Shown here: positions 3,454 to 19,493 of the stretch, piece by piece
How the letters are laid out: each line of letters starts with the position of its first letter
Numbering within the stretch: the first letter of the stretch is position 1
Virus record (IMG/VR): IMGVR_UViG_3300035088_000011
Span: 1-24,372 of that record
Length of the DNA: 24,372 nt
Strand: one strand, 5' to 3'
Source of the DNA: a virus
Notes under the pieces: generated by a model
Told to the model about the DNA's origin: nothing
What the model saw: only the letters and a program-made list of their open reading frames with translations
The model's database searches: none
Made by a program: the position numbers and the translations under genes

Positions 3454-6224
3454 TACACCATCACCGCGCCCTTGATATTCCGCACGGCGCTGGTGGTCGC
3501 GCCCTGCTCGCGCGTGATCGCGTCTTTCGCGGCGTTGACCGCTCCGATAACTCCCTCCAGGGCCGCCGCTAGGGTGTCTAGGCTGGCGGTTGGCGCAGTT
3601 GCGGGTGTGATCGGTGGCAATGCCGCTGCGCCAGCACTCGGCACGACCGGCGGTGTCGGACCGCCTACGCCCACCGGGCGCGGCCCAATGCGGTTCAGGA
3701 TGCGCTCCTGTTCCAGCAGCGCGGCATTCTCGTCCGTGACGGCCTTGCCCGATAGGCGAGCATTGTCGACCTTGCGCTCGCGCGCCTGATCGCTCGCCGT
3801 GATCATTTTTCCCTGCTGCTCCTCATAGGAGCGCTGCTCTGCGGCAAGGGCTTCGTCGCGGGCGACCGCATTCGGATCGCCGCCCGCTGCGATCTGCTTC
3901 GACTGCTCCGCCAAAAGCTGGCGCTCCTTCTCGCGCAGCGCCTCTAGCCTGGCAACCTCGTCGCCGTCCTTCTTTTGTTTGGCCTTATCGATCGCCTGTG
4001 CGTACTCCAATTCCACGTCGGCGCGGTGTTTGGCCTGCTTGACCATTTCCTCGCTCTGCGCAGCATTGCCCGCGGCGGCCGCCTTTTGGGCCGCATCGAA
4101 GTCGGCGTAATATTGCGCGTCGATGCGGGCAAGCTCGGCACGGCCCGCTTTCGTGGTATTGAGTTCCGATGATGTCAGGGCTTTGAGGAAGTCGATCTCG
4201 CTCGACCGCTTTGAGATTTCGTTTGCCTGCTGCTGCGCGAGCTGCTTTTTCTGGTAGTCTCGATCGATGTCGAGTAGCTTCTGCTGGTGCTGGGTTTCGA
4301 GGTTTTCCGCGCGGTCATCCGCTTTGGCCTGGTCGGCGAGCAAGGTATTATTCAGTCGTTGTTGGTCGGTGAGCTTGACTCCACCGGCGCCGCCACCCCC
4401 GCCGCCCTTTTTCGTCCCGCGCTTTTCCGCCTCGGCGATGTCAGCTAACTTATTGATGTAGTCTGCTGAGTCGGCGCCGCGTGTTTTGCGCAGCGCCTCT
4501 GCCTCGGCACGCAAGCGCTGGATCGTCGGGATCTGGTTGCCTTGTGCTGCCTGGAGACGCCGCTCGGCTGCGGCCGCGGCGTTGGCAGCGGCGGTGCTTT
4601 CCTGGCGCTGACTGACTGCATTGCTGTGCTTAAAGGCGTCGCGCTCGGCACGATCGGCGATCGGCGCGTTCCGCTGGGCATTAATGCCCGCCATGGCGTT
4701 GAGTAGGGCGAGCGCCCCGCGCGCCTCGTTCGCCCGGAGCGTGGTTTCGATCAGGCGCGCGATCAGCGGCGACAACCCACCGGCGGCGGCGGCGGCGGCG
4801 GCCCCGCTCGCGCTTACGTTCGGGTTCAGGGCGATGAAGGCATCTGTAGCGGCCTGGGCCTGTGCTGCTAGGAGGGCCGTAACGGCGGCCTGCTCCTGCT
4901 TCGCCGCAGTATCGGCGATGCTAGTGTTGGCTGATTCGATCAGCGCCTGGCTATGCGCCTGGGCTGCCAGCCCGGCCTGGCTCACGGCGATGCGCTCAGC
5001 CTCCATGCTACTGACCAACTGCCCGGTCGCCTCTCCCCACGTGCCAGCCGAAACAGTGCCCTGGCCTTGTTCCTGGGTCAACGCGCCGATGGCCGCGTTC
5101 ACCGCGTCAACCGCGACGACCAGCCCCTGTAGCTGCTGCCCGCCCTGTGCCGCGTTGCGGATACTTTGATCCATGGCGGCAAAATCGCCGGTCAGCAGGC
5201 GCGTGGCCCCGGTCGTGGCCTGGATTTGCGCCTCTAAGATCGCCAGCCCCGGCCCCTGTGCGAACTGCGCCTGAGCCAAGGCGAGCTGCTCATTCGCAAT
5301 AGCAACATCCTTGAGCTTGCCCGCGACCCCGGTGGTTTTTGCCGCTAAGGCGTCCATCCCGATCCCGGTATTGTTTAGGAACTTGTTCAGCACCTGTACC
5401 GCATCGGCGCCGCCAGCGATCTCGCGCTTCATCTGGCCAGCCACGTCGCGGCCGACCTCAAAGCGTGTCACCAGAGAGGTGGTATCACCCGACGCGAGCG
5501 CCTTGACCGCGACTGCGGCCTCTTGGAGGGATTGCTCGGGGGAAAGTACCTGGAGGCGGGCAAGCACGCCGAGGATGTCCTCGACGCTGGCCTTGCTGTT
5601 GCGCATGACGCCGATCGACGCTGCGATGGCTTCTGTGGTTTCTTGCTGGGTGAGCTTGAACTGGCGCGCGAACGCGGCGGCCTCGCCGTAGACCTGGCCG
5701 GTATCGCGTACGCCTTTTAACTGCGCATTAATCGAGGCTGTCGTGGCGTCCAACTCCGCCTTAAACTTGAACGCCGCCGCAAAGGAATCAACCGCGCCCT
5801 TCAGCACGCCGATGCCGCCCGCCAGCAGTGCCGCCGGACCGACGACACTGAGCATACTATTTTTGGCCGCGTCGCCGAATTGCGTAAAGGCCGACGTGCC
5901 GCCCTGGAGACGGGCAAGCTGGGCCTGAACGGCGTTCGACACGTTATCCGTCGCACCGACGTTCGCCGCCAGCGCGGTTTTGAGGATTGTGGCAGCCCGT
6001 ACGACATCCCCCATCGCAAACGCCAGCCGCGCCTCGGACTGCGCCGCACGCAGGGCACCGTCTGCTGTCTGCTGCATCGGCCCGGCGACACGACTCGTTG
6101 CGGACGCGAGCAGGCCGCTCGCCTGGCCGGTCGCACGCATCTGCGCCTCGATGCGCGTCAGGGCCACTGAGACGGTTTCCCGCCCAAGGAGAACATCTAC
6201 GGTAACAACGCCCGCGCTGGTCAT
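3453..6224 (-). CDS. Tail tape measure protein (923 aa)
   Basis: This is the longest gene in the window and lies directly after the tail-assembly chaperone pair, the standard position for the tape measure. The protein is strongly helical and Ala/Gln-rich. A hydrophobic patch at about residues 123-150 (SMLSVVGPAALLAGGIGVLK) resembles the membrane-insertion segments of tape measures. Long coiled coils occupy the C-terminal third (EYAQAIDKAKQKKDGDEVARL). Two low-complexity runs break the helices: an Ala run after SASG (about residue 475) and a Gly run after KRGTKK (about residue 605), encoded by (GGC)n-type tracts at about 4786-4803 and 4390-4410. Its ATG overlaps the preceding stop (ATGA). At about 0.15 nm per residue, 923 residues would set a tail of roughly 140 nm; that is a rule-of-thumb inference. 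Confidence 0.9.
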   Translation of the reverse strand: MTSAGVVTVDVLLGRETVSVALTRIEAQMRATGQASGLLASATSRVAGPMQQTADGALRAAQSEARLAFAMGDVVRAATILKTALAANVGATDNVSNAVQAQLARLQGGTSAFTQFGDAAKNSMLSVVGPAALLAGGIGVLKGAVDSFAAAFKFKAELDATTASINAQLKGVRDTGQVYGEAAAFARQFKLTQQETTEAIAASIGVMRNSKASVEDILGVLARLQVLSPEQSLQEAAVAVKALASGDTTSLVTRFEVGRDVAGQMKREIAGGADAVQVLNKFLNNTGIGMDALAAKTTGVAGKLKDVAIANEQLALAQAQFAQGPGLAILEAQIQATTGATRLLTGDFAAMDQSIRNAAQGGQQLQGLVVAVDAVNAAIGALTQEQGQGTVSAGTWGEATGQLVSSMEAERIAVSQAGLAAQAHSQALIESANTSIADTAAKQEQAAVTALLAAQAQAATDAFIALNPNVSASGAAAAAAAGGLSPLIARLIETTLRANEARGALALLNAMAGINAQRNAPIADRAERDAFKHSNAVSQRQESTAAANAAAAAERRLQAAQGNQIPTIQRLRAEAEALRKTRGADSADYINKLADIAEAEKRGTKKGGGGGGAGGVKLTDQQRLNNTLLADQAKADDRAENLETQHQQKLLDIDRDYQKKQLAQQQANEISKRSSEIDFLKALTSSELNTTKAGRAELARIDAQYYADFDAAQKAAAAGNAAQSEEMVKQAKHRADVELEYAQAIDKAKQKKDGDEVARLEALREKERQLLAEQSKQIAAGGDPNAVARDEALAAEQRSYEEQQGKMITASDQARERKVDNARLSGKAVTDENAALLEQERILNRIGPRPVGVGGPTPPVVPSAGAAALPPITPATAPTASLDTLAAALEGVIGAVNAAKDAITREQGATTSAVRNIKGAVMV

Positions 6225-8104: not shown

Positions 8105-8319
8105 TCGCCGTTGCCCTCTCGCGCATGCCGCGGCAGGATTGGTCCGATCGTTACGCCACCATCGTCCAGGTACGGGCCGACCGTCTTCTCGCGGGCCGCC
8201 CGCTTCTCTGGTTGGTCGCGTATCTCGCGCAAAAGCGTTATCATCTCGACAAGCCGCCCGTCCAGCCGGTCAAGCCGCTCGGCAAGCGCGATGCCAAGTT
8301 CAAGCTCCGCAGATGTCAT
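8101..8319 (-). CDS. Small helical protein of unknown function (72 aa)
   Basis: Both ends overlap their neighbours by four bases (ATGA): the start with the stop of the glycosyltransferase-methyltransferase gene and the stop with the start of the gp10-like gene. This makes it part of a translationally coupled string. The N-terminal two-thirds is one long amphipathic helix (ELGIALAERLDRLDGRLVEM, then ITLLREIRDQPEK), and the C-terminus is Gly/Pro-rich. No membrane span or known motif is visible. It may belong with the inserted enzyme gene, since both interrupt the usual connector order. Confidence 0.6.
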   Translation of the reverse strand: MTSAELELGIALAERLDRLDGRLVEMITLLREIRDQPEKRAAREKTVGPYLDDGGVTIGPILPRHAREGNGE

Positions 8320-10322
8320 ACGACTACCTCTTCCGCGTCGGGGATACGGATCACGCTCGCGCGCACGTGTGCCACGTAGCGCCCGGCATACTCCACCAGA
8401 GTCGCCCCACTGCCATAGAGTGCGGTCAGGGCGGCGTTCTCGTGGACTTCCATGATGAGGTGGTCGACCCGCCCTAACAGATCGCCCATCCCATAAATAA
8501 TCTCGTACTCCGCGCCCTCACAGTCGAGCTTGAGGAGCGCGATGCGCGAGATGGGGGTCTGCTCGATTAGATCGACCAGTGACAAACGCTTAGCCTCGAT
8601 AGCGACAGGGCCACTATCGAACGCGCCGTAATGCCCAGTATTAGTATTCGGATCGCCGTAGAGTGTGATCGGCTGTGTGTCTGCCCCAACGGCAACGCAG
8701 GCAAGCCATGCATCATGACACCCATTCGCGCCGAGGTTACGCTTGAGCCGTGCGAAGTTCGCGGGGACGGGCTCAAAGGCGTATAGCTCGACCCCTGGCC
8801 ACTTCTTCGCCAGGTAGCACGACACCACGCCGACATGGGCACCGACATCGATGACGACATCGCCAGGCGCAAACGTGAGATCCTGCAAGCGGTAGGTTGT
8901 GACAATCTCTGTCGCAACAGCATGCTTGACACCCCCATTCGGATCATCTTCGATGTTTAGTGTGATGCCATCGATCACGACCGGCCAACCCCGTTCGGCG
9001 GCATCCCGTGTTCCGTTCACCCTGAGTTCAGCGGGGCAATCAGGGATGAGGCACGGGGCAATCACGCCCTGCTCCGTCTGCGCACCGAGGCCCGCCCATT
9101 TGTGAGTGTGGAACGGGACGGGCTCCGCTGCGATGCGCTGGGCGATGGCCTCTAATACAGGCCTCCACTGCGTGTCAACGATCATGTCCTGATCGCGCTC
9201 GCGCACAGCCCACGCCCGCGCAAGGGTAGCGAGATCGGCGCGCGTGGAATCATTCTGAAGGAGGCTATACGCCGCCTCCAGCTGCTCCACGATCGCGCCA
9301 ATGTGGGGCGTGCGCCACTGGCACTCTAGGGGTAGGACAAAGAAGGGCTCGCTGTCTTTTCGCGCGACCGTCCAGCCGGCGCCGACGTTCTCGCTCATCG
9401 CCGTCCAATCGCCCGCGATGACGGGCGTGCCGCACGCTTGCGCCTCTACCAGGGGAATGCCGAACCCCTCCGAGAGGGAGCAGCCCAGCAAGACATCGAA
9501 CGCCCGGTAGCGGTCGATCATCGCCTCGGTCGAATAGCCTAGATTAAGGTCATAGGGATGCGCCCAAATTGCGCGGTCCGCCATGTCACCGAGCAGCCAG
9601 GGCAGCGGCGGCGCCTCGGGGTCAAGCTCGGGGGCGCCGTAGCAGTGCAGGTAGATCAGGGCGTCGCTGTGGCGACGGGCGAAGCGGGCAAAGGCTGTGA
9701 GTTGCTCGGGGTAGGCTTTCCGTGAGGGGTAGCCTTTATTGTGCGCAACCATCCCGACGATGAACGCATCAGCCGGCCAGCCGAGCCGATCGCGTGCCCC
9801 TCGCCGATCGCCGGGCGTGAACTGTGTCGTATCAACGCCCTGACTAACGAGTGGAAGATCAAGCCCGGCCAGCACGGCTTGGGCCTGGCCGAAGCGCGAG
9901 AGTGCGATCGCTTGGTAGCACTCCTTTAACCGCAAGGCGATCTGCGGCGCGATCGGCTCCGAGTCGAGCGGTGGCCAGGCACACCAGCGCGTGCCGTTAG
10001 CGGTGAGTTGGGTAGGGTTCTGGGCCCAAACATCGGCATGTGAAAGAAAAATGTCTGCGCCTTCTTGTTTCGTATTCGCCGCATGGATGTCGTTTCCGCG
10101 CGGGTCGAAGCCACGGCAATAGATGGGAATACCGTTCCAATCAAGCTTACCGTTTTCCAAGCCATAATAGGCGCTGATACTCATACGCAGCCCCAGCCGA
10201 TCGCGCAGCCTCGGCACTACCTCTCGCGTCGTGACTGAATATCCGAACGGGCCAAAAGGACTTGACGAGCCCCAACACACGGCCATCGGTCGTCCATTGA
10301 TTGTGATTTTCTGGTCGCTCAT
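8316..10322 (-). CDS. Two-domain glycosyltransferase (GT4-like) - FkbM-type methyltransferase fusion
   Basis: The 668-aa frame starts at the ATG at 10322, just after the stop of the tail-terminator gene; an in-frame ATG 30 codons earlier lies inside that gene and is rejected. Residues about 1-400 form a GT-B glycosyltransferase of the GT4 type: a strand-turn GMVAHNKGYPSRKAYPEQL near 190, and the C-terminal EX7E motif EGFGIPLVE (E285, E293) followed by AQACGTPVIAGDW. Residues about 445-668 form an FkbM-type SAM-dependent O-methyltransferase: motif I VIDVGAHVGV (D492, G494, G498), acidic loop YAFEPVP (E517), and LLKLDCEGAEYEII near 596-609. The two domains suggest sugar transfer followed by O-methylation of the glycan or acceptor. 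It lies inside the virion-structure operon between connector genes, so a virion protein or the host surface is a possible acceptor; the substrate is unknown. Confidence 0.9.
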   Translation of the reverse strand: MSDQKITINGRPMAVCWGSSSPFGPFGYSVTTREVVPRLRDRLGLRMSISAYYGLENGKLDWNGIPIYCRGFDPRGNDIHAANTKQEGADIFLSHADVWAQNPTQLTANGTRWCAWPPLDSEPIAPQIALRLKECYQAIALSRFGQAQAVLAGLDLPLVSQGVDTTQFTPGDRRGARDRLGWPADAFIVGMVAHNKGYPSRKAYPEQLTAFARFARRHSDALIYLHCYGAPELDPEAPPLPWLLGDMADRAIWAHPYDLNLGYSTEAMIDRYRAFDVLLGCSLSEGFGIPLVEAQACGTPVIAGDWTAMSENVGAGWTVARKDSEPFFVLPLECQWRTPHIGAIVEQLEAAYSLLQNDSTRADLATLARAWAVRERDQDMIVDTQWRPVLEAIAQRIAAEPVPFHTHKWAGLGAQTEQGVIAPCLIPDCPAELRVNGTRDAAERGWPVVIDGITLNIEDDPNGGVKHAVATEIVTTYRLQDLTFAPGDVVIDVGAHVGVVSCYLAKKWPGVELYAFEPVPANFARLKRNLGANGCHDAWLACVAVGADTQPITLYGDPNTNTGHYGAFDSGPVAIEAKRLSLVDLIEQTPISRIALLKLDCEGAEYEIIYGMGDLLGRVDHLIMEVHENAALTALYGSGATLVEYAGRYVAHVRASVIRIPDAEEVVV

Positions 10323-10338
10323 ATGGGGGTTAGCTCGC

Positions 10339-10731
10339 TCACACCGCCTCCAGATAAACTCTCCAGACATGCCCACATGTCCAGCGCCCGCCGGTGTCGG
10401 GCGGCACCACAACGGGCTGCGCGTACTCCGCCGACACGGCGTAGCCTGCCGCCGCTAGGCTCTCCATGCCCGGCGCGACGGCGGCCATCAGCGTCGCCGC
10501 CGCACTCTGGCTCATCGCAATCGCGCGTACCGTGATAAGGCCGCTCCATCCCAGCTCGTTCAGACGCCGCGCCGCGCGCCCCCCGTTGTCCTGTGACTGA
10601 AAAATAACGAACGGCGGGTCGACGCCCTCATCCGCCTGTGCCCACGACACCGGCGCCGCGGTGAGCGGATCAAGTGCGGCGAAGATCGCCCCGCGCACCA
10701 CCTCGATCGCGCTGTACAGCGGTGTTGGCAT
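10339..10731 (-). CDS. Tail terminator-like protein (130 aa)
   Basis: This gene follows the head-closure protein with a five-base gap between the TAG and the ATG. The protein begins with a helix (YSAIEVVRGAIFAALDPL) followed by PVSWAQADEGVDPPFVIFQS, then beta strands (GLITVRAIAMSQSAAATL) and a C-terminal strand (WRVYLEAV). This helix-strand-helix order is that of tail terminator (gpU or DUF3168-type) proteins. They cap the tail tube at its head end and dock it to the head. The length fits the family (about 120-140 aa). The assignment relies on order and fold impression, with no strict signature. Confidence 0.65.
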   Translation of the reverse strand: MPTPLYSAIEVVRGAIFAALDPLTAAPVSWAQADEGVDPPFVIFQSQDNGGRAARRLNELGWSGLITVRAIAMSQSAAATLMAAVAPGMESLAAAGYAVSAEYAQPVVVPPDTGGRWTCGHVWRVYLEAV

Positions 10732-12110: not shown

Positions 12111-13178
12111 TTAGATCGTGATAGTGGGGTCGGCGTAGGTCGCGTTGGCAAAAAACCAGGCCGACCCATTGGTCCGGTTCCACACGCCGAGCCCGAACAT
12201 GGCCTCGAAATATTGGGCGTACAGCGGATAGGTATCCAGTTGCGCAGCCACGCGCAACCCCTGGAAGCCCGCTACGGTGTCCTCACGAAAAACGAGGGGC
12301 TTCATCGGGCTCGCCGCGTCCCAGGTGAAGACGTAGTTCGCGATAGCCCACGGCTTCACCCATACCTCAGCCGCGCCGAAGATGCCGATGAAGCGGTTGT
12401 AGTACGAGCCGGGGTTCATCGTCTCGATCGTGTGGGCCGTGGTTGATGCCGGGATAATGCGGAAGTCCTGCGCCGGCACAAAGCCCGTCAGGGCGCGCAC
12501 CGCTGCCTCGTCCGCGTAGTTGATTGCCGAAATGATGCGCTCGCCAAAGCCATGCTCGATCACGGTGGCAATCGCGGCGGTGAAGCCGGCCGCCGTCAGG
12601 GTCGCCGTGCCGAGGTAGTGCGTATGTGACGATGCGGTGAAGGTCGATCCGTCAGGCGCGTTCGGGATCGCCATTGAGTCGGCATTCACCAGGCGCTTGA
12701 CGGACAGATCGGCGATCGGGCTGCTGTTGATGTCACGGAAGGTGTAGTTGGTCGAGAGGAACAGCGCCTTCTTGATCTCACGCCGCAGCGCCTTCTGGTG
12801 GGCCGTCTCCGCAGCCAGCGCGCGCTCGGCCAACTCCCCGACGCTCGCGCGCTTCACCCAGCGCTCATCCCAGCCGACCGGGTACTGGTAGGCGTTCAGG
12901 GGGAAGCCGACACCGCTACCGACGGCTGGCTTCTTCGTCGCGCTACGGGCGAACTCATCCACCAGCACCATATCGCCGTCAATTGAGGCACCATAGATGC
13001 GCTGCTTGTCGGTCGAAGGATCGGCCAGCTCGGTCATCATCTCGGTTTCGATCGCGTTGTGGGCGGCCAGGTCACGCTGGAGGATGGCGTTGATATTATC
13101 AATGCCGAACTCCATCACCGACGTGAAGCGGTTCGCGCGCAGGTCCGAGAGGGTGTAGGTTCCGATTGGGGTTGCCAT
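12111..13178 (-). CDS. Major capsid protein, HK97 fold (355 aa)
   Basis: The gene follows the scaffold and decoration genes and precedes the connector genes. The protein has the expected order of an HK97-fold capsid subunit: an N-terminal helical arm (residues 1-50), an E-loop region near 60-100 (IDGDMVLVDEFARSATKKPA), a spine helix with GELAERALAAETAHQKALRR at about 114-133, and a C-terminal P/A-domain segment including GERIISAINYADEAAVRALT (212-231) and FGAAEVWVKPWAIANYVFTW (267-286). The C-terminal region is the part shared with the zinc-ribbon protein at 17141-17557. No large N-terminal delta domain is obvious, which fits the separate scaffold gene. The stop is followed by a 13-bp hairpin. 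Confidence 0.85.
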   Translation of the reverse strand: MATPIGTYTLSDLRANRFTSVMEFGIDNINAILQRDLAAHNAIETEMMTELADPSTDKQRIYGASIDGDMVLVDEFARSATKKPAVGSGVGFPLNAYQYPVGWDERWVKRASVGELAERALAAETAHQKALRREIKKALFLSTNYTFRDINSSPIADLSVKRLVNADSMAIPNAPDGSTFTASSHTHYLGTATLTAAGFTAAIATVIEHGFGERIISAINYADEAAVRALTGFVPAQDFRIIPASTTAHTIETMNPGSYYNRFIGIFGAAEVWVKPWAIANYVFTWDAASPMKPLVFREDTVAGFQGLRVAAQLDTYPLYAQYFEAMFGLGVWNRTNGSAWFFANATYADPTITI

Positions 13179-13181
13179 AGC

Positions 13182-13595
13182 TTACACCATCCTCGTTACT
13201 TGGATCATCGTGGCGGTCACTGCCCGCGCCACGCCGACCGCATCACCTGTCGTCGCTGCCGTATCAAGCCGTCCGGCCGTCGCTCCAATAAAGAGCGCGA
13301 CACCCGGCGTCAATCCGGTTGCATACTCGAACTTCGTGCCGATTTGGAACAGCGTCACCGGCTCGCCCGTCTTGGTGAAGCGGGCGGCGAAGCCCGCCAA
13401 GCGGGCCTTCTCATCGGCGGCGGTGCCGTCGGCAGGGTAGACCTTGCCATCCGAGCCTTTGATGTAGCAGGGGGTGACGGCTTGGGACGCCGATCCGATG
13501 TCTGCGCCCGCGACCAGCCCATCACTGATCTGTGGGGCGTACATGCCCGTCGAAGAATCCAAGCCCGCTACGGCGGAAACCGTTACCAGGGCCAT
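13182..13595 (-). CDS. Head decoration / capsid-stabilising protein (137 aa)
   Basis: It has a strong ribosome-binding site (AGGAGG) and lies between scaffold and capsid, the usual place of decoration proteins. The product is Ala/Gly/Thr/Val-rich and beta-predicted, with an internal KGSDGKVYPADGTAADEKAR and a C-terminus GDAVGVARAVTATMIQVTRM. The final pattern, a GxxVGxAxxxTxxxxxV strand pair, recurs in decoration proteins of the DUF2190/gpD-like group. The role would be to sit on the assembled capsid surface and stabilise it. The family name is a judgement by pattern, not a search result. Confidence 0.65.
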   Translation of the reverse strand: MALVTVSAVAGLDSSTGMYAPQISDGLVAGADIGSASQAVTPCYIKGSDGKVYPADGTAADEKARLAGFAARFTKTGEPVTLFQIGTKFEYATGLTPGVALFIGATAGRLDTAATTGDAVGVARAVTATMIQVTRMV

Positions 13596-14700: not shown

Positions 14701-15066
14701 CTATCGCGGTCGAATGGGGATGCCATATGGTTGCGGCATATCTTCCGCAAGCAGGTAGGCGACGAGATCGGGGTTCCGCCTGAGCATATCGAGCAGCGGA
14801 CACGCGAGCGCCCGGATCGCCGCCTCGTCATCCTCATGGCTGCGCGTGCCGACGTGCCAGCAGCCATGCAACGCCTCGTGCAGTAGGGCGTAGCGTTTGT
14901 GCGCATCGTTCTGCTCTGGATTCAGGATGATCTGCCCCTTGGCGTACAGGATGCGTCCCCAGGTCGATTCGCCGGACTCCGCGCTGATGCTGTTGTGTTC
15001 GGCACGGTCATCCGTGACGGCGTACACCAGCGGGCCGATAGCGATCTGTGTCGGGAGGGCGCTCAC
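14701..15066 (-). CDS. HExxH zinc metallopeptidase-like phage protein (about 121 aa)
   Basis: The core YALLHEALHGCW holds the zinc-metallopeptidase motif HExxH (H63, E64, H67 counted from the chosen start). It is followed by a helix with acidic residues (RSHEDDEAAIRALA) that may give a third ligand, and by RRNPDLVAYLL. This layout, with a beta strand GRILYAKGQIILNPEQ before the motif, matches small metallopeptidase-like proteins common in phages and distantly like ImmA/IrrE. I chose GTG at 15066, which overlaps the stop of the 22-aa gene (GTGA); a GTG at 15087 would add seven residues. The function is not established. Candidates are cleavage of a host regulator or a virion protein. It occupies the region where a prohead protease is often encoded, but that role is unproven for this type. 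Confidence 0.7.
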   Translation of the reverse strand: MSALPTQIAIGPLVYAVTDDRAEHNSISAESGESTWGRILYAKGQIILNPEQNDAHKRYALLHEALHGCWHVGTRSHEDDEAAIRALACPLLDMLRRNPDLVAYLLAEDMPQPYGIPIRPR

Positions 15067-15131
15067 TTCTTGCCCTTCTTCATCCACGGTGGCAGGCTCT
15101 TCGTCTTGCTGGTCTTCTTCTTGGATGCCAT
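15063..15131 (-). CDS. Lysine-rich 22-aa micropeptide
   Basis: A near-perfect ribosome-binding site (AAGGAG, seven bases before ATG) precedes a 22-codon frame: nine or so Lys in the pattern MASKKKTSKTKSLPPWMKKG followed by KK. Its stop overlaps the GTG of the next gene by four bases (GTGA). Very short Lys-rich peptides ending PPWMKKG or PPFMKKG recur in phage structural regions in my memory, but no function is known. It might bind nucleic acid or act as a leader that couples translation of the metallopeptidase-like gene. Confidence 0.6.
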   Translation of the reverse strand: MASKKKTSKTKSLPPWMKKGKK

Positions 15132-15142
15132 GGTGTCACTCC

Positions 15143-15571
15143 TTAAATCAAATACTGCACCCCGACACTATATGTGAAGCTCCCCGACGCGCTGTGCGTG
15201 ATAGTGATGCGCCAGGTGCGCGGGATGTTCGCCGCAATGACGGCGGTAAATGAACCGTTGGCCGCCACCGCGGGATAGATCAGGTAGGTGCGCGTGCCCG
15301 TCGTCGCCAGGGCCGCGCCAGCGGCACCGAGGGCATAGGCTTTGCCCGATGCGGGGTCGATCCCGAAGCACGCCAGTGTGACGGTCTCTACCGTAGGAAC
15401 CGCGGTAATGTCGAATGTCACAATGACGCCACGCGCGCCGGGATTGACTAGGTTGATTGTCTGCGTTGTCGTGCGGGCGGCCGAGGCCAGCGCGATCACA
15501 TCGGCGTTGCCGTCGGCGTTCCCCAAGTCATCCACGATCTGAACCTGATAGTTCTTATCCGGTGCTGGCAT
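15143..15571 (-). CDS. Beta-rich structural protein, possible decoration protein (142 aa)
   Basis: It overlaps the end of the portal gene by 17 bases and has its own strong ribosome-binding site (AAGGAG). The protein is Ala/Thr/Val-rich and predicted all-beta, with segments such as GARGVIVTFDITAVPTVETV, GTRTYLIYPAVAANGSFTAV and WRITITHSASGSFTYSVGVQ. This resembles Ig-like or jelly-roll virion surface domains. A head decoration or minor virion protein role is inferred from composition and location next to the portal. No cysteine pattern or catalytic motif is present. Confidence 0.6.
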   Translation of the reverse strand: MPAPDKNYQVQIVDDLGNADGNADVIALASAARTTTQTINLVNPGARGVIVTFDITAVPTVETVTLACFGIDPASGKAYALGAAGAALATTGTRTYLIYPAVAANGSFTAVIAANIPRTWRITITHSASGSFTYSVGVQYLI

Positions 15572-17141
15572 TGATTAGCTCCTTGCCGTTCTGTTGCGGC
15601 ATCTGCCCGTTCTGCGGCGCTACGCCTGGCTGCTGCTGCGCCTGCGCATCCTGCATTTGTTGCATGGACTCCTGACGACGTTGTTCGGCTTCGGCTTCCC
15701 ACTTGGCTATTTGTGCCTCGGAATACCCTAATTCGCTCCAAATTTGACGCAAGGGCACACCAAGCGATTGCTTCTTGAGCGCCTGATCAAGCTCCTCCGA
15801 CTCGTCTCTCGCTGATAATGGTTCCCATTGTGGGGTGATCTCTACTTCGGGATCGAGTGAAGGCGCGGTCCAAAAGGCGTTATGCAGCCTGCGGGCAACA
15901 TTAAAAAGATCCTCAATAGCATTGCCGATCTCAGACTGACGCATCCTCGCTTTATTAAGTAAAGGTGTCTCTTGTTGTTTTTGAGTCCCCTCTGCGGCTA
16001 ATTGTTTCGACGTAATGAAACGACTGACTGGTGTATCAGTAGTCATCGCCGCCCACTGAATCCAGTTATACACCTGCTCGGAGATGTTCGACAGGTCCGC
16101 GCCGGGAACGGCCACGGCTGACGCCCCGGTGCGCTCTGTGCCGACCCATGTGCCAGGGTCGATTGGTAGGGGATTGCCTTCGTCGTCAACCGGGCGCCAC
16201 CCTAGGGCGATCATGATACGGAACGCTGTAAGATCCTCCGCCGCAAGAAGGTCGATGATGGTCTTGTTGATGGCGTTTTGCGGACCGACGGCCTCGCCGG
16301 CCTCGAACCCTGCCGTGCTACGGATGTGGACAACCGGGATGCCCAGGGGCATCCCCTCTCGATCAACCCACGCGATCGGCCAGCCCGGATCGCCCTCGTC
16401 CTGGACCGCCGACCACCCCCCATCGCCGCCCTCGTACTTCTCGATACGATCGGGGTAGTAGACCGTCAAGCGCTCGATCACGGCGCGCGACCCACCAGCA
16501 TAGCTCACCGCCTGCCAGCGCTTCGCCACGAACTCTAGCCGTTGCTCCACGTCGTCGTTGTCATAAAAGGCGACACAGCCGAAGTTCGCATCGTCCGCCG
16601 CGGAGGCCGGTCCAAGGTAGCGCGGGTGCGGGATGAAGCGCGGGATCTGTGCCGTATCGTCCCACACCACGAGCACGAACGTCTCGCTATCGCGCAGCGC
16701 GGTCTCATAGATCCGCCGCTGCCGCGCGTCCATTCTATTCTTGCGCCAAATGAGGGAGGCCCACTCCGCGACCGGCTTGACCGTACCAGCGGCGGGCTGT
16801 CCGTTGGCGTCAAGCGCGACCGCGCCCTTCTCGTCTTTCAAGGGCGCCGTGCTACCCTGCTCGTCCGTCGTGAGGCCAGAGACAATCAGGCGCTCCACAA
16901 CAGCATTGATGACGGTGACGAAGATATTCAGGCGTAGTCTTTTGAAGTCCTCCGTGGTAAGGCCGGTCACGCCACCGAGGTATTCCCGCATGCGCTCGGT
17001 GAGTCGAATAAACTGTCGGCCAGCCCAATAGTCACGCTGCTGCTGAATGTCTTGGATGTAGGCTGTGTCGCTCACAAGCCTATCGGCGATGCGGGCATTC
17101 ACGGCAGCGTCAAGCTGGGCGGGATCGCGGCGGGTGAGCAT
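15555..17141 (-). CDS. Portal protein (SPP1 gp6-like, 528 aa)
   Basis: The start chosen is the ATG at 17141, which overlaps the stop of the upstream gene (TAATG); an in-frame ATG 18 codons earlier lies inside that gene. The 528 residues are of normal portal length. Features include an N-terminal helix with RDYWAGRQFIRLTERMREYL, a central beta region with GIPVVHIRSTAGFEAGEAVG, a long helix with NAINKTIIDLLAAEDLTAFR, and a Gln-rich coiled C-terminus (QQMQDAQAQQQPGVAPQNGQ). Together with its place after TerL, this fits the SPP1 gp6-type portal. It forms the dodecameric gate for DNA packaging. A patch at about 15890-16070 is visibly AT-richer than its surroundings. Confidence 0.9.
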   Translation of the reverse strand: MLTRRDPAQLDAAVNARIADRLVSDTAYIQDIQQQRDYWAGRQFIRLTERMREYLGGVTGLTTEDFKRLRLNIFVTVINAVVERLIVSGLTTDEQGSTAPLKDEKGAVALDANGQPAAGTVKPVAEWASLIWRKNRMDARQRRIYETALRDSETFVLVVWDDTAQIPRFIPHPRYLGPASAADDANFGCVAFYDNDDVEQRLEFVAKRWQAVSYAGGSRAVIERLTVYYPDRIEKYEGGDGGWSAVQDEGDPGWPIAWVDREGMPLGIPVVHIRSTAGFEAGEAVGPQNAINKTIIDLLAAEDLTAFRIMIALGWRPVDDEGNPLPIDPGTWVGTERTGASAVAVPGADLSNISEQVYNWIQWAAMTTDTPVSRFITSKQLAAEGTQKQQETPLLNKARMRQSEIGNAIEDLFNVARRLHNAFWTAPSLDPEVEITPQWEPLSARDESEELDQALKKQSLGVPLRQIWSELGYSEAQIAKWEAEAEQRRQESMQQMQDAQAQQQPGVAPQNGQMPQQNGKELINASTG

Positions 17142-17557
17142 TAGCGGGCCTCTTGCATACACGCATAGCCCTGGACAGCCCAAGGCTTGATCCAAATCTC
17201 TGCCGCTTGGTAAATACCCAGGAGGCGATTACTGAGGGTCTCATCACGAGTCGCGCGACCTCTACGGAAGAAGGAAACTTCAATAAAGCCTGTCAGTGAT
17301 GAGATGGCAGCTACGTCGTCATAACGGACCGCGATGATGATCCGCTCAGCGCCGCGCTCGAATGCACGCTGACTGAGCGCCTGCAACCCCTCTGCCGTGA
17401 TCGGTTCCTTTTCGATTCCGTCATCCAGGCGCTTAGTCGCGCCGGTCGTCGCAATCCGCTCAGTCTCCCCCGTCGCCGCAACGGTGCGACCACACTCAAT
17501 GCAAAAGCGCGCCGCAGTCGGCAGTTCATCATTACAGGATGGGCAGCGGGTGAGCAT
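17130..17557. repeat. Pair of 12-bp direct repeats at the starts of the portal and the zinc-ribbon gene
   Basis: GCGGGTGAGCAT occurs at 17130-17141 and 17546-17557. On the minus strand both read ATG CTC ACC CGC: the first four codons (MLTR) of the portal and of the zinc-ribbon/capsid-like gene. The repeats are 416 bases apart and bracket exactly one gene. The pattern parallels the 15-bp repeat pair at 1052-1376, where the inserted gene is also bracketed by copies of the downstream gene's start. Confidence 0.65.
17141..17557 (-). CDS. Zinc ribbon fused to a major-capsid-protein-like segment (138 aa)
   Basis: Residues 1-24 are a classic Cys4 zinc ribbon: CPSC (C5, C8) and CIECG (C19, C22), as in zinc-ribbon domains of the CPxC...FCxxCG type. 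Residues 53-131 align with residues 194-281 of the capsid protein encoded at 12111-13178. GAERIIIAVRYDDVAAISSL corresponds to FGERIISAINYADEAAVRAL, both followed by TGF. LLGIYQAAEIWIKPWA corresponds to FIGIFGAAEVWVKPWA. About 22 residues around the last block share 13 identities. The linker of about 16 residues between TGF and NRLLGI is shorter than in the capsid. The TerL stop abuts the ATG (TAGATG), and its stop overlaps the portal start (TAATG). The role is unknown: an assembly factor, minor capsomer component or packaging-linked DNA-binding protein are options. A simple pseudogene is unlikely, given the intact frame and coupling. Confidence 0.8.
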   Translation of the reverse strand: MLTRCPSCNDELPTAARFCIECGRTVAATGETERIATTGATKRLDDGIEKEPITAEGLQALSQRAFERGAERIIIAVRYDDVAAISSLTGFIEVSFFRRGRATRDETLSNRLLGIYQAAEIWIKPWAVQGYACMQEAR

Positions 17558-18982
17558 CTACCGTCTCCTCTGTGCGGGCGCGGTGTACGACAGGCTAAAG
17601 CCGCGTGCAACCTCGGCTAGCATCAGCCCATAGCGCACCATATCATAGGCATCATCGCCCGCCTCGCCGGCCTCATCGCAATCGACCTTGAGCACGTCCT
17701 CGGGGCGGTTCGGGTCATGGATCATTGCGGGGATCTGCGCAATCGCCCGTACGCAGGTCGAAAAAGCACGGAACGTCGGCTGCTGCCCTGCGATGCCCAG
17801 CCGCTCAATGATCGCCGCCGCGCCGTTGATCCTGTCAATATCGGCGCGCTCCAACTCAATCCCATGATCACCGTACTGTTCTGCGATGGTCTTGCCCTGG
17901 CTATCACCCCGTTGAGAGAACACATCATGCCCAGCAACGATCGGGGCGGGCATGCGAACCCCGAGGCGCGCGATCAGACCATGGATCTCTCGCGCGTGCT
18001 GCGCGACTGTCCACTTGTGCTGGACATGCTCTCCGATGAGGTACACCACGCCCTCACTGCGGGTAAACAGGCCGAACGCCGTATTATGCGTAAAGCCATA
18101 GTCAAGCGCCCCCCAGCATGGCCAATCGCGCGGGATCGGGAAGGGCACAGCGGTATGGAGCGGGTCAGACCATGCGGTGAAAAACTGCCCCGCCGCGATC
18201 TCCCAATCCCCCGCCTCCATCTGCGCCGCAAGGGCGGGCTCGGTTTCGCGTAGGGAGGCTCTATACTCACCCTGGTCGATATACTGATTATCAGTGAGCT
18301 TGGCGAACACGAAAACGCGGCCGTCTTTCTCGTACACCGACGCGTGCTTATCCCACCCCTGGATAAAACGCCCCTTAACCCACTGGTGCCCAACGTTGCC
18401 GGGGTTCGAGGCGCTGCGCATCCGTAGCGGAACAGCGGCGAGCGCACCGACCGCCGGCTTGCGCAGTCGCGTAAATAGGTAGGTGTACTGCGTTTTGCTG
18501 AACTGAGTCAGCTCATCAAAGGCAACATACTGGAACTCTGCCGACTGGTAGCGGTACTTATGCGTCTCCTGTTCGAGGTAGCCGAAGGTCAGCGTGGCCC
18601 CACTCGGGAACGTCCAGGTCTTCTCCTGCGCGTTCCAGTGCGCGTCCGTTCCCGATAGCCACTCCCTAGCACGATCGAGCAACGCGCCGGGGAGGGAGAG
18701 ATCGGCATAGGTACGCCGCAAGATCAGCGCAGCATAGCCCGGTACGTGGGCGTACTGCAAGGCCGCCATGAGCAGGGCGTCGGACTTCCCACCGCCCGCT
18801 GCCCCGCCGTAGAAGGCTTCGCGCACGTCAAGCGCAAGAAAAGCCCGCTGCCGATCGGTCGGCACATGGTTATTCCAGTAGCGCTCCGGCACCCCCGCCC
18901 GCGCCGGCTGGGCGCGCTGCCTAGCCGCGCTTGCGCGGGCGCGCTCACGCTCAACTTGTTCGGTGCTTACGGAGTACGTCAT
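17558..18982 (-). CDS. terL: Terminase large subunit (TerL, 474 aa)
   Basis: The N-terminal ATPase has the Walker A motif GGAAGGGKS (residues 59-67), Walker B YVAFDE (152-157) with catalytic Glu157, and a coupling motif SASNPGN (190-196). The C-terminal RNase H-like nuclease shows acidic residues in WGALDYGFTHNT (Asp294), AGHDVFSQRGDSQ (Asp353) and GDDAYDMVRYG (Asp443/444). The length of 474 aa is normal. The protein powers DNA packaging at the portal and cuts the concatemer. The start chosen is the ATG at 18982; a TTG three bases earlier is possible. It overlaps the end of TerS by about 32 bases. Its TAG abuts the next start. Confidence 0.95.
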   Translation of the reverse strand: MTYSVSTEQVERERARASAARQRAQPARAGVPERYWNNHVPTDRQRAFLALDVREAFYGGAAGGGKSDALLMAALQYAHVPGYAALILRRTYADLSLPGALLDRAREWLSGTDAHWNAQEKTWTFPSGATLTFGYLEQETHKYRYQSAEFQYVAFDELTQFSKTQYTYLFTRLRKPAVGALAAVPLRMRSASNPGNVGHQWVKGRFIQGWDKHASVYEKDGRVFVFAKLTDNQYIDQGEYRASLRETEPALAAQMEAGDWEIAAGQFFTAWSDPLHTAVPFPIPRDWPCWGALDYGFTHNTAFGLFTRSEGVVYLIGEHVQHKWTVAQHAREIHGLIARLGVRMPAPIVAGHDVFSQRGDSQGKTIAEQYGDHGIELERADIDRINGAAAIIERLGIAGQQPTFRAFSTCVRAIAQIPAMIHDPNRPEDVLKVDCDEAGEAGDDAYDMVRYGLMLAEVARGFSLSYTAPAQRRR

Positions 18983-19493
18983 CAAGGCTGATTTTACCGT
19001 CTATGAAGGCGTCGCGCACGTCGGGTGGCACCTGATCCCAATCAACCTGCACATTCGTGTTGACCGTGTTTGTCCTGCGATCGCCCACTTCTTTCGCAAT
19101 GTCATCAAGCACGCCACGGTATTGCTGTACTTCCGCCGTATTGAACTCCTCGTATTCGACCTCTTTCGAGAGCAACCCCGATCCGATCATCTTCACCTGA
19201 TCGGTCCAGAGGAAGCCGCCGAAAATGTCTCCTTCCATCAGCGCGGCAAGCTGCTGCAACTTACGCACGCGCTCGGCTTTGAGCGCTAGGCCAGCTGTGA
19301 GGGCGTCGTGCTCCGCATCGGCCGCAATCGCCTTGATATTCACCGCGCGGTGCCTCCGATACCAATCGACCAGCTGGCGCGACACCTCGAACGGCGGTGC
19401 CTCACGTGCCGCGCGTGCGTTGATTTCGTCGGTTTGCAGCCCTTCGGAGATCCATTCGAGGAGCTTCGTTTTTTGGTTCTTCTTCAACCGCAT
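18951..19493 (-). CDS. Terminase small subunit (TerS-like, 180 aa)
   Basis: It precedes TerL and overlaps it, the standard arrangement. The N-terminal 55 residues form a DNA-binding helix-turn-helix: KTKLLEWISEGLQTDEINAR, then APPFEVSRQLVDWYRRHR, a form I associate with phage small terminases. A central helical oligomerisation region follows (DALTAGLALKAERVRKLQQL). The C-terminus, DVRDAFIDGKISLDDVLRK, is acidic and may contact TerL. The ATG at 19493 was chosen; a TTG nine bases upstream is an alternative. Its first 92 bases overlap the 106-aa gene in another frame. Confidence 0.8.
   Translation of the reverse strand: MRLKKNQKTKLLEWISEGLQTDEINARAAREAPPFEVSRQLVDWYRRHRAVNIKAIAADAEHDALTAGLALKAERVRKLQQLAALMEGDIFGGFLWTDQVKMIGSGLLSKEVEYEEFNTAEVQQYRGVLDDIAKEVGDRRTNTVNTNVQVDWDQVPPDVRDAFIDGKISLDDVLRKHRTS

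Follow-up and report, generated by a model that had tools for sequence, protein, structure and literature searches.

The window, by which we mean the whole stretch of 24,372 nucleotides of viral DNA analysed here, carries a small gene whose product very probably combines two parts, a zinc ribbon and an HK97 A-domain that derives from the capsid lineage of the phage itself. The gene lies between those for the large terminase subunit (TerL) and the portal protein (Table 1). The ATG of this fusion gene directly follows the TAG stop codon of TerL (AGAGGAGACGGTAG followed by ATG) with a Shine-Dalgarno sequence (AGAGGAG) upstream, and its own stop codon overlaps the portal start in TAATG, an anatomy that agrees with the original prediction of a gene coupled to both of its neighbours. 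The TTG start at 17195 that is listed for the portal gene falls inside the fusion gene. The same prediction had delimited the open reading frame as we do and had recognised an N-terminal zinc ribbon in CPSC...CIECG. Two CxxC knuckles (Cys4), the hallmark of PF13240 zinc ribbons, are indeed present and zinc binding is predicted, with a Pfam score that barely exceeds the curated cutoff. Neither an RNA family nor a tRNA was found.

Table 1. Features of the fusion gene, its neighbours and its parent capsid gene, in window coordinates.
Feature	Position	Strand	Basis
Terminase large subunit (TerL)	17558..18985	-	phrog_979, E 6e-59
Zinc ribbon-A-domain fusion gene	17141..17557	-	ORF, 138 aa
Direct repeat ATGCTCACCCGC, copy 1, at the start of the fusion gene	17546..17557	-	exact, 12 nt
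Zinc ribbon, residues 5-24, CPSC-x10-CIEC (predicted)	17486..17545	-	PF13240, 25.2 bits, cutoff 25
Low-confidence linker, residues 25-47	17417..17485	-	AF2 pLDDT 47-69 in blocks 21-50
Capsid A-domain copy, residues 48-138	17144..17416	-	BLASTP, profile, AF2, VIA
Arg68, replaces capsid metal-ligand His209	17354..17356	-	alignment; ligand assignment PMC10635136
Conserved block NRLLGIYQAAEIWIKPWAVQGY	17165..17230	-	holds all 8 kept family-fixed columns (8/9)
Direct repeat ATGCTCACCCGC, copy 2, at the portal start	17130..17141	-	exact, 12 nt, at the TAATG overlap
Portal protein, ATG start	15555..17141	-	phrog_104, E 1e-41
Parent major capsid protein, Patience-like HK97 fold	12111..13178	-	phrog_3990, E 8e-30; PDB 8saj, 8giu
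Parent A-domain segment, MCP residues 194-288	12315..12599	-	BLASTP vs fusion protein

The major capsid protein (MCP) of the window is a Patience/Adjutor-like HK97-fold protein. Its predicted structure matched the capsids of the Mycobacterium phages Adjutor and Patience with VIA Z scores of 22.2 and 21.9, with the next capsid at 13.7, and aligned over its length with both (Z 22; PDB 8giu, 8saj; PMC10635136). By sequence, the MCP profile found only Adjutor and Patience in the PDB (E 9e-25 and 3e-19). Directly upstream of the MCP gene, a small protein that is conserved in nearly all relatives is encoded on the minus strand (13182-13595); its position matches that of gp22, the gene for a minor capsid protein in Patience, and it is possibly a minor capsid protein as well. 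In the relative L037, the MCP is spread over two ORFs (868-1446 and 1468-1959, within 868-1959), indicating a broken or interrupted capsid gene, and a contig of a Rhodobacteraceae MAG contains a capsid relative in two overlapping and possibly frameshifted reading frames (L057:4963-5830).

Residues 53-137 of the fusion protein align with residues 194-288 of the window MCP at 40% identity over 95 columns (pairwise BLASTP, E 1e-17). The original prediction had aligned about 80 C-terminal residues with the capsid and had counted 13 of 22 identical positions in the block NRxxGIxxAAExWxKPWAxxxY, both of which we recovered. An A-domain profile built from the capsids of relatives, from which the window MCP and the relative with 89% identity to it had been left out, scored the fusion protein with 42.0 bits (E 3e-11), compared to 12 bits for the best of 5000 shuffles and 4 bits for the best of the 479 ORFs of the window once the MCP and the fusion protein itself are set aside, which excludes a chance likeness to the capsid. 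Against PDB sequences, an A-domain profile matched nothing but an aldolase (E 0.22). The copied segment represents the A-domain without the upstream strand that bears the HxH ligands and has a shorter loop where the MCP is variable; P-domain, E-loop and N-arm are absent, and the fusion protein thus does not have the full HK97 fold of Patience-like MCPs. We rejected a frameshifted or broken MCP as the source of the ORF: an intact MCP gene is present elsewhere in the genome, and the motif-bearing MCP-related ORFs in viral contigs continue for 73-80 residues after the KPW motif (47-61 in two that reach the ends of their loci), whereas the fusion protein ends after only 12. Neither of the two outcomes that had been named as contradicting the original prediction, a protein unrelated to the capsid fold or the end of a frameshifted capsid gene, was encountered, as profile and structure comparison tie the fusion protein to that fold and the MCP of the relatives is single and intact.

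As suggested with the original prediction, AlphaFold and structure comparison were applied to the fusion protein. AlphaFold2 placed residues 51-90 and 111-130 in a confident alpha/beta domain (pLDDT 93-97), and the order of its elements (H55-67, E73-77, H79-86, E91-93, E111-116, E119-123, E131-136) is that of MCP residues 196-287. Among the 22 VIA matches of the model, ranks 1-20 and rank 22 were HK97-fold shells, matched at their A-domain ranges, with a best Z score of 6.8 (<8). The model was built from an alignment that includes capsid rows and leans on the capsid fold, and therefore supports the assignment without being an independent proof; it is the sequence homology and not the fold model that proves the A-domain identity of the C-terminal part. 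The stand-alone A-domain is predicted to fold as a unit.

In the A-domain of the Patience capsid, a putative metal site formed by His198, His200, Glu223 and His224 was proposed to lock the A-domain helix, and a small protein, gp4, bridges the split hexamers of this capsid (PMC10635136). The window MCP shares the H/H/E/H residues of this site, and the equivalents in its family (H185, H187, E208 and H209) are invariant in 28 aligned MCPs. In contrast, the fusion protein consists of the A-domain alone, does not contain the HxH pair and has an arginine in place of the EHG histidine (ERG vs EHG), so that neither H-x-H nor E-H is present. Nine columns of the copied segment are fixed in the family (H, R, G, A, W, K, P, W and Y) and eight of them are kept in the fusion protein; the only one lost is the metal-ligand histidine, now Arg68. 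The zinc ribbon precedes the A-domain where the MCP has the HxH strand.

The copy is old. Fusion gene and MCP gene match at 62, 61 and 33% of codon positions 1, 2 and 3, and 18 of 38 codons for identical residues are the same, with 17.7 expected at saturation from codon usage. The estimated dN was ~0.54 and dS was saturated, compared to 0.08 and 0.85 between the MCPs of the window and its close relative L001. A recent duplication of the capsid segment can thus be dismissed on the basis of the saturated synonymous sites, in line with the original prediction. In a tree, the fusion A-domain was placed nearest to the pair of window and L001 MCPs with weak support (95/50), within a clade of six rows that has strong support, and its branch length was 1.77 compared to a median of 0.22. 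The reading frame is intact without any stop codon, and of the 17 columns that reach at least 90% consensus, 12 were kept in the fusion protein, compared to 24 of 66 other columns (p 0.014). The helix half of the domain is far less conserved than the hairpin half. By these measures, the fusion A-domain is fast-evolving yet apparently constrained. Some of the divergence may predate the truncation, when the lineage would have been a full capsid paralogue, and the data cannot separate the two phases.

Both the fusion gene and the portal gene begin with an exact 12-nt direct repeat, ATGCTCACCCGC, which was found nowhere else in the window and had not been mentioned before. From codon usage, the chance of its three shared codons is ~2.5e-5. 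In L001 (MCP 89%, portal 60% identical), TerL overlaps the portal gene at TAATG and there is no gene between them. The repeat looks like the trace of an insertion between TerL and portal by which the start of the portal gene was duplicated, or of a later conversion. Because the capsid-derived part has reached saturation whereas the repeat is exact, the fusion gene had probably been formed before its arrival at the present place. A 12-nt repeat is shorter than assembler k-mers. An assembly artefact through the repeat is unlikely in view of the gene's own Shine-Dalgarno sequence and start-stop overlap; a single contig exists.

The nearest known kind of protein is the Family 4 A-domain encapsulin, of which the fusion protein is not a member. 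Family 4 proteins (PF08967, PDB 2PK8) comprise ~100 residues that represent only the HK97 A-domain without P-domain, E-loop and N-arm; they are encoded by cellular genes of thermophiles, mostly near metabolic enzymes, and have very low similarity to capsids (PMC8346489). The fusion protein likewise carries a stand-alone A-domain of ~100 residues. This domain, however, shares 40% identity with a parent capsid from its own genome and is attached to a zinc ribbon, and the gene lies in a phage packaging operon, flanked by TerL and portal instead of enzyme genes. PF08967 was not among the Pfam matches of the fusion protein with E<=1, and 2PK8 was not among the VIA matches of its model. To our knowledge, stand-alone A-domain proteins have so far been described only as cellular proteins and linked to HK97 capsids by structure. 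Unlike for these, the parent capsid gene is recognisable by sequence in the same genome. This makes it possible to test if an A-domain taken from a capsid folds and docks by itself, and in which way one part of a shell protein turns into a regulator or a new protein. That a fused zinc ribbon has taken over from an internal metal lock is a specific idea that can be tested.

Among phage proteins, Patience gp4 is comparable as a small capsid accessory protein encoded near the packaging genes of a phage with Patience-like capsid; however, its 102 residues contain no cysteines and by eye no A-domain likeness, so that the comparison is an analogy only. Patience gp7, which is also encoded between terminase and portal, was rejected as a homologue, as its sequence looks like an HNH/endonuclease VII-type protein. 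The vertex protein gp24 of phage T4 is reportedly a full-length duplicate of the capsid gene that adopted a specialised role and forms pentamers, whereas the fusion protein kept just one capsid domain. We found no published report of a phage A-domain-zinc fusion or of a partial capsid duplication.

The two main helices of the A-domain provide the interfaces between facet subunits in HK97-fold proteins (PMC8346489). Without P-domain, E-loop and N-arm, the fusion protein cannot form a shell alone, and the kept A-domain together with late, portal-coupled expression suggests docking on MCP A-domains as its most likely activity, an assignment that we regard as plausible but tentative. The fusion protein could then be an accessory or assembly factor of the capsid that is present in few copies, with the retained capsid surface packing beside MCP A-domains at the capsomer centre, most plausibly at the portal vertex or within the chasm of the split hexamers known from Patience-like capsids. 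Its zinc ribbon may substitute for the lost metal lock, provide a second contact to portal, terminase or DNA, or both; zinc binding, docking site and partner are the steps that we infer. Of the original interpretation, the zinc ribbon, the origin of the A-domain in the capsid lineage of the phage itself and the packaging operon stand, whereas its role in assembly, packaging or inhibition we can likewise only infer. Against docking, the surfaces for capsid contacts may have been lost, considering the long branch and the weakly conserved helix half; the loss of the metal-site histidine and the lack of an orthologue of this single sequence also count against it. It is even more tentative that the phage freed the A-domain of its own capsid as a zinc-ribbon capsid factor at the capsomer or portal vertex, as a counterpart to the origin of A-domain encapsulins.

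Alternatively, and somewhat unlikely in our view, the fold may have been re-used outside the capsid, with the A-domain serving only as a stable scaffold for a zinc-ribbon protein whose partner would be DNA, terminase, portal or a host factor. The long branch and the lost metal ligand would fit such a history, as would the general use of zinc ribbons as nucleic-acid or protein binding modules and the adjoining TerL and portal genes. However, the kept positions are those fixed in capsids rather than a random selection, even if constraint on the fold alone would produce the same pattern.

Relatives of the fusion protein were found neither in viral contigs (protein search) nor in one genome each of about 85,000 species, and cultured phages in INPHARED gave only weak matches with E values of at least 0.09. 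All 39 related viral records, many of which are fragments, hold one A-domain, within the MCP, and all motif-bearing MCP-related ORFs of viral contigs are capsids. In 150 cultured Patience-like phages, no second A-domain was detected (150 places, one each). Locus scans with TerL and portal returned only two loci and one locus, respectively. The fusion protein is thus known from a single sequence so far, which limits confidence, and its persistence in nature is unproven. The existence of one copy without orthologue and the insertion-like repeat could indicate evolutionary debris, a functionless product of illegitimate recombination that happens to be open, and the age of the copy would weigh less against this if part of the divergence arose in a full MCP paralogue. 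We nevertheless consider debris decidedly unlikely, because the frame is intact despite saturated synonymous sites, invariant residues are kept, and the gene has a well-placed Shine-Dalgarno sequence and a start-stop overlap.

An isolated domain with part of the capsid signature and without the shell-forming P-domain and E-loop could also act as a dominant-negative or superinfection-type factor that caps the capsomers of related phages or satellites. This is improbable, as expression from the phage's own late operon would harm its own capsid too, and there was no match in the defence library. Host systems such as CapRel and Lit sense capsid proteins, and the kept signature block might make the fusion protein a decoy for such sensors or for nucleases recognising capsid protein, but with its late-operon position this is the most far-fetched reading.

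Between portal and scaffold, a weak M78/metallopeptidase-like ORF is present on the minus strand of the window (14701-15087; phrog_1233, E 3e-9). In L001, this interval contains a small zinc-finger ORF (4056-4403) that by eye resembles Mu Com, and similar short CxxC ORFs occur in L030, L045 and L051. The run of structural genes in the window additionally includes an ORF of 698 residues (8316-10412, minus strand) that combines a GT4-like glycosyltransferase part with an FkbM-family methyltransferase (TIGR01444, E 7e-28) and possibly represents cargo for the modification of virion or host surfaces.
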